Assembly: GCA_016193115.1 (NCBI GenBank)
Contig: JACPSV010000213.1
Span: forward strand, 1-11,851
Direction: 5' to 3'
Source of the DNA: Elusimicrobiota bacterium
GTDB taxonomy: Bacteria > Elusimicrobiota > Elusimicrobia > 2-02-FULL-39-32
DNA length: 11,851 bases
Made by a program: the position numbers and the translations under genes. Under the pieces are notes generated by a model that was given only the letters and a program-made list of their open reading frames with translations, was not told the origin of the DNA and made no database searches. Positions 3,012 through 6,779 of this stretch are shown here, in pieces (within the stretch, counting starts at the first letter, position 1; each line of letters begins with the position of its first letter).

Positions 3012-3566
3012 GTGTATTCTGACTTTGTGAAGTACGGGAGAATGCTTTGGGAAGCGGGTCTAATCCACCTGACCTCCGGGAACATTTCCATGCGTAAGGG
3101 TCCGGTGCTGTATGTGACGCGCACCGGTTCTCTTTTGGGCGATCTCACTCCATCCGATATTGTTTCGGTCAATTTGGAAAACACCCTGCGGGATAAAGGC
3201 GCTTCCTCGGAGACTCCTGTTCACCGGGCCATCTATCTTGCAAACCCGGAGATTGGAGCCGTTGTGCATGCACACCCGCCGCACGCGACCGCTCTCTCTT
3301 GGGATTACGAGGTGATCCGGCCGATAGATTCCGATTCTCTTTACATTCCCGAAATTCCGGTTTTGTTGGATTGTCCGTATGGCGAAGGATCTACCTGCGT
3401 GGCTCAACATTTCCCCCAGATTCTTGGGAAACATACGGTGGCCATGATTCGCGGTCACGGCGCTTTTTCGGTTGGGAAAGATATTCGACAAGCCACAGCC
3501 CGCATCTCCATGATGGAAAACCAGTGCCGACTTCTCTTTTTCCGAAGACTTCTGGAGAAAAAATAG
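3012..3566 (+). CDS. Class II aldolase / adducin-head domain protein
   Basis: The product has 184 residues, all of it one class II aldolase domain. Family marks are present: GNIS at 23-26 (phosphate loop), a TGS loop at 38-40, SSE at 65-67 with E67 as the probable catalytic acid/base, the zinc histidines H86 and H88 in HAHPPH, and H149 in RGHG. These match FucA, where the equivalents are Glu73, His92, His94 and His155. The family includes fuculose-1-phosphate aldolase, ribulose-5-phosphate 4-epimerase and MtnB dehydratase. I cannot tell the substrate, and no sugar or methionine-salvage gene is adjacent. The GTG at 3012 is the only start keeping the full N-terminal helix; an upstream stop closes the frame, and ATG at 3042 is the alternative. 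With the promoter ending at 3003, the message would be leaderless or nearly so. Confidence 0.87.
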   Translation: MYSDFVKYGRMLWEAGLIHLTSGNISMRKGPVLYVTRTGSLLGDLTPSDIVSVNLENTLRDKGASSETPVHRAIYLANPEIGAVVHAHPPHATALSWDYEVIRPIDSDSLYIPEIPVLLDCPYGEGSTCVAQHFPQILGKHTVAMIRGHGAFSVGKDIRQATARISMMENQCRLLFFRRLLEKK

Positions 3567-3737: not shown

Positions 3738-4391
3738 ATGAAGTTTGACCTCCTTGAAAAAATAATCCTAGAATATAATTCAAAATTCAATCTGATTTCC
3801 CATAATGATTCTAAAATTATCCAGATCAGGCATTTTCAGGATTCCCTATACGTTGCGCACCTATTTAAGGATATGTTTCACCGTAATATTAAAAATGCAA
3901 TCGATGTTGGCAGTGGCGCTGGTTTCCCAGGTATCCCCATTGCCATTCTTTTCCCGGATATAAAAGTCACACTTCTTGACTCCAATCGTAAAAGACTTAC
4001 ATTCCTGGATTCCATACTTCGAAAAAGGTTGGATATGAGGAATGTAGAATGTGTTTGGGGCCGATCTGAGAACATCGCCCACAGGAATGAGTTCCGTGAG
4101 TGTTACGATGTTTCAATTACGAGAGCGCTTGCTAAACTTCCAGTTGCATTGGAATTGAATTTACCATTTGTCAGAGTTGGTGGAACCTCCTTCTTTTGGA
4201 TTGGAAACGAGTCAATTCTAGAGGAGGACTCAAACAAATGCGCCAATAAATTTGGTGGAGAATTTTCCAGAGGCGAGAAATACTCCATTTTATGTGATCC
4301 TGCCGGTTACACGCGATCTATTCTGGCTTTCGAGAAATATGCTCCCACGAGTGAACGATACCCCAGACGCACAAGTGCCATGGCTCGATAG
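3738..4391 (+). CDS. rsmG: 16S rRNA (guanine-527-N7)-methyltransferase RsmG (GidB), short N-terminus
   Basis: RsmG uses S-adenosylmethionine to methylate G527 of 16S rRNA. The 217 residues show the family core. NLISHND leads into HFQDSL, then the SAM site AIDVGSGAGFPGIP (about 54-67), LLDSNRKR (about 79-86), a GRSEN motif, ITRALAKL, and the terminal PTSERYPRR. The usual lysine-glycine after the VGG motif reads FWIGNE here, a departure from the family. The ATG at 3738 lacks about 20 residues of the usual N-terminal helix and has no clear ribosome-binding site. The same frame stays open back to 3639 and reads like the missing helix, but holds no ATG, GTG or TTG. The C-terminus stops soon after YPRR. 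The gene is clearly more AT-rich than the genes outside this region. It could be functional with an unusual start, or decaying. Confidence 0.85.
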   Translation: MKFDLLEKIILEYNSKFNLISHNDSKIIQIRHFQDSLYVAHLFKDMFHRNIKNAIDVGSGAGFPGIPIAILFPDIKVTLLDSNRKRLTFLDSILRKRLDMRNVECVWGRSENIAHRNEFRECYDVSITRALAKLPVALELNLPFVRVGGTSFFWIGNESILEEDSNKCANKFGGEFSRGEKYSILCDPAGYTRSILAFEKYAPTSERYPRRTSAMAR

Positions 4392-4464: not shown

Positions 4465-4558
4465 GAGCGGATGCTACCGCTCACCCTGAGCTTGTCGAAG
4501 GGTGAGCACGGGTGCTCATGGTTCGACATGCTCACTATGAGCGGGATTTCAGTATGTA
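4465..4558. repeat. REP/BIME-like composite palindromic repeat, copy 1
   Basis: Three consecutive hairpins can be drawn. The first pairs GAGCGG with CCGCTC (4465-4482). The second pairs GCTCACCCT with AGGGTGAGC (4479-4487 and 4499-4507) around a GAGCTTGTCGA loop. The third pairs GCTCAT with ATGAGC (4514-4519 and 4537-4542). The stretch from 4478 to 4558 is repeated with small changes at 5795-5898. CCTGAGCTTGTCGAAGG-type palindromes are dispersed in many bacterial genomes. Confidence 0.88.
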
Positions 4559-4661: not shown

Positions 4662-4690
4662 TGTTTCATGTGAAACATTACGGTGAAACA
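4662..4690. promoter_or_regulatory. parS-like palindrome with an extra half-site, copy 1
   Basis: TGTTTCATGTGAAACA at 4662-4677 differs by one base from the widely conserved ParB site TGTTTCACGTGAAACA. A further half-site, GTGAAACA, follows at 4683-4690, 13 bp after the equivalent half of the palindrome. The rhomboid ATG is 5 bp downstream. Its position after rsmG, the usual neighbour of parAB, supports a centromere-like site. An operator for a repressor acting on the rhomboid gene is the alternative. Confidence 0.7.
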
Positions 4691-4695
4691 ATAAA

Positions 4696-5367
4696 ATGAT
4701 ACCATTGAGGGACAATATACCTTCCAGAAGGATTCCTTTTGTAAACTACGTCCTGATAGGGATAAATATAATTGCCTTCCTATCTCAGATAAGGATGGCC
4801 CGTATAGGGGCTGTAGAAGAGTTTATACTTCTGAATGGAGTCATACCGAATCAGTTCTTGGATGATCCATTTGACAGAGCCAGAAGCTTAGTGACCTCAC
4901 AATTCCTGCATGGTGGCTGGATGCATATTCTTGGGAATATGCTCTATCTTTACATTTTTGGAGACAATGTGGAGGATCGTTTGGGGCACTGGAGATTTCT
5001 AGGTTTCTACTTGTTTTGTGGCATCTCTGCATCCTTGGCCCAGATTTATTTTCACCAGAATAGCACGGTTCCTATGATCGGAGCCAGTGGATCCATAGCC
5101 GGTGTCCTGGGGGCATATTTCTTCTTCTTTCCAAGAGCAAGGGTTCTGACTTTGATTCCAATTGGGTATTTCAGCAGGATAGTGGAATTGCCCGCATTCC
5201 TATTTTTGGGTTTTTGGTTCGTTATTCAGATGTTTAGTGGCACGGCTTCATTGTATGCAGCCAAAACCTTTGGGGGCGATGCGGGAGGAATTGCATGGTT
5301 CGCTCACGCCGGTGGATTTCTGGCTGGATTTTTAGGAGCTATTTTTCTTGTATGGAAAAGGGCATAA
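4696..5367 (+). CDS. Rhomboid-family intramembrane serine protease
   Basis: The product has 223 residues and about six membrane segments. It cleaves substrate transmembrane helices within the bilayer; the substrate here is unknown. The catalytic dyad is visible: S131 in GASGSIAG and H204 in WFAHAGGF. The supporting H77 and N81 in HGGWMHILGN match GlpG His150 and Asn154. VEDRLGHWRFLGFY at about 92-105 is the conserved loop after the second segment. The N-terminal IPLRDNIPSRRIPFVNY is typical of bacterial rhomboids of this type. No extra soluble domain is present, so it is a compact core enzyme. The ATG has no clear Shine-Dalgarno and follows the parS-like repeat by 5 bp. A second copy of that repeat lies just after the stop codon. 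Confidence 0.95.
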   Translation: MIPLRDNIPSRRIPFVNYVLIGINIIAFLSQIRMARIGAVEEFILLNGVIPNQFLDDPFDRARSLVTSQFLHGGWMHILGNMLYLYIFGDNVEDRLGHWRFLGFYLFCGISASLAQIYFHQNSTVPMIGASGSIAGVLGAYFFFFPRARVLTLIPIGYFSRIVELPAFLFLGFWFVIQMFSGTASLYAAKTFGGDAGGIAWFAHAGGFLAGFLGAIFLVWKRA

Positions 5368-5369
5368 AA

Positions 5370-5398
5370 AGTTTCACATGAAACATTACGGTGAAACA
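5370..5398. promoter_or_regulatory. parS-like palindrome with an extra half-site, copy 2
   Basis: AGTTTCACATGAAACA at 5370-5385 differs from the ParB consensus by two bases. It is followed, with the same 13-bp offset, by the half-site GTGAAACA at 5391-5398. Positions 5371-5398 match 4663-4690 at 26 of 28 bases, so the two are true copies in direct orientation flanking the rhomboid gene. The LAGLIDADG gene starts 27 bp downstream. Confidence 0.68.
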
Positions 5399-5425: not shown

Positions 5426-5806
5426 ATGATGGAGGGTTTAGAGGTGGATCAGTTCTCACTTGGGTTCCTGTTGGGGATCTTGGTGGGGGAAGGGCATTTT
5501 GGAGGGGATGGAAGACAGCCACAGGTGACATTGCGGATGCATGTGCGACACAAAAATCTGTTTGAGTGGCTGCTGAGAATTGTCCCAGGATCAAAACTCT
5601 ATGGGCCCTACAATCATTCGGGTAGGGAATACTATCAATGGATGGTGCGCGGGGAACCTCTGCGCCAATATCTAGCGCCTCTTTTGCAGAAAACCTCTCT
5701 TCGGTATCTCGCCCCTTACCATTATGATCGTTTTCAAAAAATGGTAGAGAAATACCATATTGAGTTAAACCCGACTTTTGCATTGGGATGCATCCGCTCA
5801 TCCTGA
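5426..5806 (+). CDS. Solo LAGLIDADG-type (homing-endonuclease-like) protein
   Basis: This 126-residue product has one LAGLIDADG-like helix, FLLGILVGEGHF (about 14-25), with E22 in the place of the metal-binding acidic residue. The fold's usual beta-strand pattern follows: QVTLRMHVRHKNLFEWLLRIV, then KLYGPY and YYQWMVRG. One motif per chain implies a homodimer if it folds like I-CreI. It may be a DNA-binding or nicking relative rather than an active nuclease. No intron or intein surrounds it, so it is free-standing. GGAG at 5414-5417 sits 8 bp before the ATG at 5426; 5429 is a second ATG. The last 14 residues (about 113-126) and the TGA are encoded by two different dispersed repeats, so the original C-terminus has been replaced or extended. 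Confidence 0.75.
   Translation: MMEGLEVDQFSLGFLLGILVGEGHFGGDGRQPQVTLRMHVRHKNLFEWLLRIVPGSKLYGPYNHSGREYYQWMVRGEPLRQYLAPLLQKTSLRYLAPYHYDRFQKMVEKYHIELNPTFALGCIRSS
5765..5787 (+). repeat. Solo arm of the palindromic element family
   Basis: The 23 bp from TTAAACCCGACTTTTGCATT onward match 6610-6632 with one difference (CATTGGG against CATTAGG). No inverted partner is present; the sequence runs straight into the composite repeat at 5795. It lies inside the LAGLIDADG frame and encodes LNPTFALG. Confidence 0.85.
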
Positions 5807-5898
5807 GCTTGTCGAAGGATGAGTGCAGTTGCTCATGGTTCGACAGGCTCACCATGAGCGGCTGGACGAGCTCACCATGAGCGGGCTTTCAGGATGTA
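5795..5898. repeat. REP/BIME-like composite palindromic repeat, copy 2
   Basis: The first hairpin pairs CTCATCCT with AGGATGAG (5797-5804 and 5816-5823) around the same GAGCTTGTCGA loop as copy 1. The second pairs GCTCATGGT with ACCATGAGC (5831-5839 and 5851-5859). The unit then repeats part of itself (CTGGACGAGCTCACCATGAGC, 5862-5882) before sharing the GCGGG-TTTCAG-ATGTA tail with copy 1. The TGA of the LAGLIDADG gene (5804-5806) lies within the first hairpin. Confidence 0.88.
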
Positions 5899-5946: not shown

Positions 5947-5961
5947 ATGACTCAAAAAATA

Positions 5962-5970
5962 TGTTATAAT
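5962..5970 (+). promoter_or_regulatory. Extended -10 promoter element for folE
   Basis: TGTTATAAT is a perfect extended -10 (TG, one base, TATAAT). There is no good -35 about 17 bp upstream, which extended -10 promoters tolerate. Transcription would start near 5977, so translation would begin at the ATG at 5989 rather than at the upstream ATG at 5947. Confidence 0.5.
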
Positions 5971-5988
5971 TACCACCGGACGATAAGC

Positions 5989-6603
5989 ATGGAAATTGAG
6001 AAGGCGGAAAAAATACTGGGAAGCGCCAAGTCTGATCTGAATTCTCGACTGGAATATCATGTCGAATCCATCTTGAGAGAGTTGGGGATGGATTCGTCCC
6101 GGGAAGGACTTAGGAGAACTCCCAAGCGCGTAGCGGAGGCTTTTAGGTTTTTCACGCAAGGATACGCTCAGGATCCTGACCAGATACTATCCAGAGCTAC
6201 TTTCAGCGAGAAGTATAACCAAATGGTTCTCGTCAAGGATGTTAACTTTTTCTCCCTTTGCGAGCACCACCTTCTTCCCTTTTATGGGAAATGCCATGTC
6301 GGTTATATTCCGGATGGGAAAGTGGTGGGACTCTCTAAAATTCCCAGAGTTGTGGACGCCTATGCCAGAAGATTACAGATTCAAGAGCGTCTCACCCAGG
6401 AGATTGCTTCCGCCATAGAATCCGTCGTCAAACCGCGCGGCGTGGGCGTTGTGATAGAAGCATTCCATCTCTGCATGGCCATGCGCGGCGTGGAGAAACA
6501 GAACGCTTACGCAACGACCAGCGCGATGTTAGGAGTGTTTGAATCGCACGAACGCACGCGCATGGAGTTCTTAAGTTTCATCCGCCGGGACGTTTCCCGT
6601 TAG
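5989..6603 (+). CDS. folE: GTP cyclohydrolase I (FolE)
   Basis: This enzyme converts GTP to 7,8-dihydroneopterin triphosphate, the entry step to folate and, in many bacteria, queuosine. From this start it has 204 residues, close to the family's usual length. Numbered from 5989, the zinc ligands are C91 and H94 in [12 protein letters not shown] and C162 in [24 protein letters not shown] and [23 protein letters not shown] are family hallmarks. An in-frame ATG at 5947 would add 14 residues of non-conserved sequence. It has a GAAGGGG-like ribosome-binding site, but it lies in what looks like dispersed repeat and upstream of a TGTTATAAT promoter, so I prefer 5989. The long palindrome begins 7 bp after the stop. 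No other folate gene is in view. Confidence 0.95.
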
Positions 6604-6609
6604 CCCTAA

Positions 6610-6779
6610 TTAAACCCGACTTTTGCATTAGGAAATGAGAACCGAGACGAAAAATAAGGGTCAGATTTTGGCACAAAAAAGTGAGAGCGTACTCTGGAGT
6701 ACGGTCGAACTTTTTTGTGACGAAAGATGACCCTTATTTTTCGTCGAATTCCATTTCCTAATGCAAAATTCGGGTTAAA
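6610..6779. mobile_element. MITE-like long palindrome, about 170 bp, no coding capacity
   Basis: The whole segment is one imperfect inverted repeat centred near 6695. The left arm begins TTAAACCCGACTTTTGCATT (6610-6629) and the right arm ends with its near-complement at 6759-6778. Inward from these, GACGAAAAATAAGGGTCA (6646-6663) pairs with 6729-6746, CACAAAAAAGT (6672-6682) pairs with 6709-6719, and the centre GTACTC-TG-GAGTAC (6689-6702) is a perfect palindrome. It encodes no protein and sits between folE and resB. A short form is at 2929-2977 and a solo arm at 5765-5787. A non-autonomous element moved by a transposase elsewhere is the best guess. A very long stem-loop RNA could also form when it is transcribed. 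Confidence 0.85.

Follow-up and report, generated by a model that had tools for sequence, protein, structure and literature searches.

Putative parS Sites beside a Rhomboid Gene and Apart from parAB in a Family of Elusimicrobia

Results

Gene Content of the Locus

The window, meaning the whole 11,851-nucleotide stretch of DNA that was analyzed, is the entire contig C210 of a 1.5-Mb draft genome (321 contigs, 80% complete). It carries genes for a 3D-domain protein, NfeD, SPFH, and an aldolase, then rsmG, rhomboid, LAGLIDADG, and folE; downstream of folE lie resB, sirC, ccsA, hemA, and hemC, named by reading the ORFs and not by profile. The features on which the analysis turns are these:

3012–3566, + strand: class II aldolase-type gene (PF00596), preceding rsmG in a conserved order
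3738–4391, + strand: rsmG (gidB), 16S rRNA methyltransferase (PF02527, 122.5 bits, E 1.7e-35)
3874–3887, − strand: third ATTACGGTGAAACA, inside rsmG, without a palindrome
4662–4677, no strand: parS-like palindrome TGTTTCATGTGAAACA, directly before the rhomboid start, one mismatch to TGTTTCACGTGAAACA
4683–4690, + strand: extra half-site GTGAAACA with prefix TTACG, 21 bp start to start from the first palindrome
4696–5367, + strand: rhomboid intramembrane protease (PF01694, E 4.1e-34)
5370–5385, no strand: second parS-like palindrome AGTTTCACATGAAACA, between rhomboid and the LAGLIDADG ORF, two mismatches to TGTTTCACGTGAAACA
5391–5398, + strand: extra half-site GTGAAACA, at the same 21-bp offset from the second palindrome
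5426–5806, + strand: predicted single-motif LAGLIDADG-fold protein, 126 aa (structure model and PDB matches)
5947–6603, + strand: folE, GTP cyclohydrolase I (PF01227), the next gene in the conserved order

The profile matches uphold the rsmG and rhomboid identities given in the initial annotation. Across an alignment of 16 rhomboid sequences, S131 and H204 are invariant, and we take these serine and histidine columns to be the catalytic residues. The small ORF at 5426–5806 had no Pfam match at E 0.001, and seven family members stayed below the cut-off of the Pfam LAGLIDADG profile (best E 0.033; window protein, 12.3 bits vs. 22.5). Despite these scores, its LAGLIDADG label is borne out by a confident structure model (pLDDT 90.7), which best matches LAGLIDADG endonucleases (PDB E 1.6e-5); as modeled, the protein has the LAGLIDADG fold. 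Its protein family is very widespread (at least 7998 matches), and the two best-scoring organism-named relatives among the matches listed are from Elusimicrobia, in line with a probable placement of the window in Elusimicrobiota. No host intron or intein was seen near the ORF by inspection, and no known RNA family reached its gathering score in the window.

Repeats also occur here. Direct repeats of 76 bp, 87% identical (4469–4544 and 5786–5861), bracket the rhomboid–parS–LAGLIDADG cassette and might have favored rearrangement. Two inverted elements, at 2920–2986 and 6610–6779, end in AACCCGAATTTTGCATTAGG-like sequence, the latter containing 49-nt hairpin arms, and a similar element stands between rsmG and rhomboid in the relative G003 (L065, about 1990–2160).

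Two parS-Like Palindromes Flank the Rhomboid Gene

The initial annotation had described palindromes with one and two mismatches to the parS consensus around the rhomboid gene; both are there, flanking the gene, and each is a 16-bp palindrome near TGTTTCACGTGAAACA, as expected of parS. TGTTTCATGTGAAACA has no mismatch to the related pattern TGTTTCAYRTGAAACA. The two copies form a 29-bp direct repeat with the GTGAAACA half-site as its end, and a 50-nt direct repeat, 80% identical, contains both palindromes with their half-sites. Allowing three mismatches to TGTTTCACGTGAAACA, we observed two palindromes in the window vs. 0.06 expected by shuffling (n = 200; 2 of the 200 shuffles gave two matches).

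A genome-wide search for sites, proposed along with the annotation, gave three places with up to two mismatches to parS in the window's draft genome: the two window sites and a third on contig C18, within an ORF read by eye as a sigma factor. By our own estimate, chance would give about 0.4 such places per 1.5 Mb, and nowhere does the draft come closer to the consensus than in the window. The copy at 5370–5385 has the position common to relatives, with a site there in G002, G003, G005, G006, G007, and G008. Shuffling, genome-wide rarity, and conservation in relatives lead us to reject a chance origin of the palindromes.

The Genome Encodes a ParB of the parS Type

Searching the window's own genome for parB, as had been recommended, located the gene outside the window, on contig C234 (TIGR00180, 191.9 bits), and its product matches solved chromosomal ParBs (best E 6.9e-54). 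When aligned to Caulobacter ParB (6t1f), with positions 173 and 201 mapped by us, all seven family ParBs have the equivalents of R173 and G201 together with the GERR motif; the ParBs of G010, G012, G019, and G050 were left out of this residue count. According to passages of one study (PMC7383237), ParB conserves R173 and G201, and Noc has Q and R in their place. We reject Noc identity on the presence of R and G, not Q173 and R201, in all seven. Judged from its sequence, the window's genome encodes a cognate ParB of the parS type.

Sites and parAB Lie Apart in the Window's Family

The window's family, f1, comprises nine genomes, the window's included. A comparison of rsmG neighborhoods in relatives, another check suggested at the outset, placed f1 sites at the rhomboid gene and parAB on other contigs. 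The order aldolase–rsmG–rhomboid–site–LAGLIDADG–folE is common to the window, G003, G005, and G007; G002, G006, and G008 have rsmG elsewhere and rhomboid–site–LAGLIDADG–folE intact, the G002 site at the rhomboid position having two mismatches. In the G001 draft, which gave no close rhomboid, a perfect site directly follows rsmG, and the G004 draft has neither a site with up to one mismatch nor a parB match. Site and parB are on different contigs in all eight f1 members having both (the window's genome included and G002 counted by its two-mismatch site). Wherever the f1 parAB region was read (7/7 genomes), parA–parB–gene X stands on another contig than the site; parAB is divergent from gltX in six of these regions, and the G003 contig begins in parA. 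The seven regions (104 kb) held no parS-like site with up to three mismatches. If site and parAB share one replicon, contig ends put them at least about 90 kb (G007), 49 kb (G005), and 70 kb (G002) apart; for the window's own genome, the contigs prove no more than about 9 kb.

Within the family, the sites are rare and clustered. Beyond the two of three places in the window's own genome, all 7 sites with up to one mismatch in G005 (draft 98% complete) and all 10 in G007 (96%) fall genome-wide within one interval of 1.1–1.3 kb at the rhomboid gene, many of them about 70–90 bp apart, downstream of the gene and once inside it. The site center is often TG or CA, not CG. Read by itself, the window's draft, with just two sites of one and two mismatches that resemble a local duplication, would suit degenerate remnants without present use. 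We consider remnants highly improbable, given that these two congeneric relatives have kept and multiplied sites here and that nothing else in the window's draft matches the consensus better.

Relatives Suggest a Position Near the Origin

In all six f1 members with both genes on one contig, rsmG and dnaA are 12–26 kb apart, a count that leaves out the window, G001, and G003 (3 of the 9 f1 genomes). The distance between the sites themselves and dnaA is 24–28 kb in G005 and G007; in G002 it is 38 kb. Because the window's own 80%-complete draft gave no dnaA match, it is from these relatives that its segment is placed, probably near the origin. In the GC-skew check, also proposed beforehand, G007 alone gives mild support: on its contig C22 (4-kb windows), skew is negative nearly throughout and positive at 94 and 96 kb, the location of dnaA. 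It is also positive in a single window at 10 kb, and the final window is negative again. The contigs of G010 and G012 were uninformative.

A Half-Site Accompanies the Palindrome at a Fixed Distance

An extra half-site at an equal offset from both palindromes had been noted, and the 21-bp start-to-start distance is indeed identical at the two; the third ATTACGGTGAAACA, inside rsmG, was absent from that account. GTGAAACA occurs five times in the window vs. 0.53 expected, one occurrence being an arm of the first palindrome. The window has two copies of the composite (palindrome, 5 bp, then GTGAAACA), and G002, G005, G006, G007, and G008 have one apiece; the G002 palindrome deviates by two mismatches and the G008 half-site by one. 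G033 (f6) has two more, with GACGGTGAAACAA, 59 bp apart (L194, C269, 263–351) and with two and one mismatches in their palindromes, which brings the fixed 21-bp composites to nine; its 3.7-kb contig had no LAGLIDADG gene, rhomboid, rsmG, or parB match. The pattern TGAAACANNNNGGTGAAACA (up to one mismatch) matched 10 of 147 class genomes, six through the family composites. Matches without a palindrome, in G018, G031, G045, and a second time in G007, look like chance. At the remaining array sites of G005 and G007 and the scorable sites of f3, f5, and f8, the half-site is absent (at most 4/8 letters), and one G036 site has 6/8 letters at the offset.

The 12-mer TACGGTGAAACA (up to one mismatch) was found 13 times in the family contigs near the origin or the sites (270 kb in total) vs. 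0.67 expected from 12 Markov-resampled sets; this enrichment is post hoc, the motif having been defined on 7 of the 13 matches, and the other six are two from congeners and four inside rsmG. Another 147 kb of family contigs held none vs. 0.25 expected, which is a weak control because so few were expected there. The 12-mer ACGGTGAAACAA gave 13 matches in 16 chosen genomes vs. 3 for the reversed control, and 5 of the 13 (G012, G013, G036) had no adjoining palindrome. TAC(G/A)GTGAAACA is seen within rsmG of the window, G003, G005, and G007 (two of them congeners), the window copy being on the opposite strand.

Two readings of the composite at the RNA level were rejected. An RNA hairpin of palindrome and half-site is not supported by the changes in G008 and G002, which, judged by eye, are not compensatory. 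A Shine–Dalgarno reading of GGTGA could be at most part of the explanation: by eye, the distance to ATG varies from about 9 to 31 nt, and no evident gene start follows the G033 composites.

Composites adjoin the LAGLIDADG gene upstream, shortly before its start and with identical 21-bp spacing, in six of the seven family members having it (exception by location: the window's rhomboid copy). The seventh, G003, still has TATACGGTGAAACA before the gene, but the palindrome ends 66 bp away. Such placement would suit a composite that is chiefly an operator of this gene, bound by its own product or another regulator, with the likeness to parS secondary; the protein's modeled fold fits as well. On a palindrome, such a single-motif LAGLIDADG protein would presumably work as a homodimer. 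We nevertheless think this quite unlikely to be the main role: the other array sites of G005 and G007 are without the half-site, f3 and f5 have parS with rhomboid and no such gene in the stretches read, G033 has two composites on a contig without it, and the protein's relatives are far more widespread than the composite. The copy that precedes the LAGLIDADG gene may in addition serve as an operator, a function already raised as an alternative in the initial annotation. Passages of PMC7022226 report that Pseudomonas aeruginosa ParB represses genes adjoining two parS sites and binds half-parS sites, and by analogy, ParB repression of the LAGLIDADG gene at the composite is plausible.

Distribution of Site, Rhomboid, and parAB in the Class

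We searched 60 genomes of the class, the window's included, for rhomboid, site, ParB, RsmG, and DnaA, defining a close rhomboid orthologue by E below 1e-45 and a site by up to one mismatch to TGTTTCAYRTGAAACA. Close orthologues occur in 19 genomes, 11 with a site within about 1.2 kb and 8 with none adjoining, among them G002 with its two-mismatch site. Sites were found in 22 genomes (the reversed control pattern matched 1 of 60): in 11 near a close rhomboid, in 7 more beside parAB or within 4 kb of rsmG, and in 4 (G021, G028, G033, G036) elsewhere only. In 11 genomes, the window's included, no more than 3 kb separates rsmG from a rhomboid. Four genomes have rhomboid beside both parS and parA: G010, G019, and G026 (f3) and G012 (f5). 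Three perfect sites surround rhomboid–parA–parB in G010, which has two further sites away from the par locus. The G026 contig ends within the rhomboid–parA locus, and parB opens another contig that also bears dnaA 36 kb on; the two contigs presumably join. G012 has rsmG–rhomboid–parS–parA–parB and then gene X in one row, and gene X is downstream of parB in f1 alike.

Canonical parS is not universal in the class because 38 of the 60 genomes are without a site though 57 have a ParB match; ParB sites in genomes of the former kind may differ in sequence. We also scanned 20 parAB regions of other genomes (11.7–20 kb each), additionally requiring symmetry at 6/8 positions. Two regions had a site with up to one mismatch beside parA, two had three-mismatch palindromes only, and 16 had no parS-like palindrome with up to three mismatches.

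The order of families in the rhomboid tree is poorly resolved and so does not prove which arrangement came first. This tree and the 16 regions without a palindrome would fit a history in which parAB never moved out, f1 having gained or kept parS independently and f3 and f5 having brought parAB beside it. Against that history, which we regard as unlikely, stand the adjacency of rsmG and parAB, a common gene order in bacteria, and the single row of G012. Because that row includes X and X follows parB in f1, a joint move of the whole operon requires fewer steps.

Rhomboid loci of named genomes (the best 80 of at least 581; two titled Elusimicrobia and nearly all the rest from other phyla, some with short flanks) had no site with up to one mismatch; just two of them, L154 (Elusimicrobia) and L152 (Poribacteria, 36% identity), had a ParA-like gene. 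These loci do not support a general partnership of rhomboid and parS; because none of the 80 had a site, the gene is probably a passenger of the parS/parAB locus. Judged by title, no paper on Elusimicrobia or on rhomboid among those found concerns this arrangement.

Discussion

The palindromes are most probably (roughly 0.83) an origin-proximal chromosomal parS centromere left in place when parAB moved away, with ParB acting in trans. That the segment is origin-proximal and parted from parAB had been suggested from the window itself, and relatives support it: four genomes keep rhomboid, parS, and parA together, and f1 has site and parB on different contigs wherever both are present. ParB would be made from a parA–parB operon now elsewhere, beside gltX, would load in trans on the two window palindromes, and would spread across the rsmG–rhomboid–folE region. 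ParA would move ParB, and the origin region would segregate first. The rhomboid gene would be a long-standing passenger, not a partition protein. We infer ParB binding at both palindromes, which partner moved (parAB, with parS staying behind), and the presence of parS and parAB on one replicon; the drafts are also compatible with parAB on another replicon.

A further reading, which we put forward tentatively and rate as doubtful, is that parS and the phased TACG half-site form a distinct partition element of this lineage, a ParB operator that would nucleate the segrosome and switch the neighboring LAGLIDADG gene and, in the window's genome, the rhomboid gene as well. Equally tentative is its extension, by which TACG half-sites inside rsmG would mark the zone and the centromere would have evolved alone after parAB left. 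Any use of the extra half-site would be a proposal made from DNA sequence.

As a kind, chromosomal parS is familiar; the new details, as read here, are the separation of site from operon in f1 and the conserved composite. Within one phylum, on this reading, centromere and partition genes have come apart without the loss of either: parS stays with parAB in some families, and f1 keeps parS at the rhomboid gene, multiplied in place in one genus. The f1 layout is a natural test of whether ParB must be encoded near its site, and the composite offers a concrete sequence for asking what half-sites do, a question that passages of PMC10419367 and PMC7022226 still leave unsettled for Pseudomonas.

Comparison with Known Systems

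The locus resembles the ParABS systems of Bacillus, Caulobacter, and Pseudomonas in having a 16-bp palindrome near TGTTTCACGTGAAACA, clustered near dnaA in relatives, and a cognate ParB with R173, G201, and the GERR motif. It differs from them in that f1 parAB is on a different contig (8/8) with the sites retained beside rsmG–rhomboid, in that the site center is often TG or CA, and in that one site of the cluster has an extra phased half-site. Half-parS sites of P. aeruginosa, according to passages of PMC10419367 and PMC7022226, likewise have a single parS arm (GTTTCAC/GTGAAAC) as the element, whereas the candidate half-site here mostly has a TACG-like prefix and a fixed 21-bp distance in nine copies. 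Noc and its NBS share a ParB-type fold and a palindromic site, but the window site is not like the NBS consensus TATTTCCCGGGAAATA given in the relevant passages of PMC7383237. Finally, the protein of ORF 5426–5806 is predicted to share the fold of LAGLIDADG homing endonucleases of the I-CreI and I-OnuI type and, unlike them, has one motif and is free-standing.
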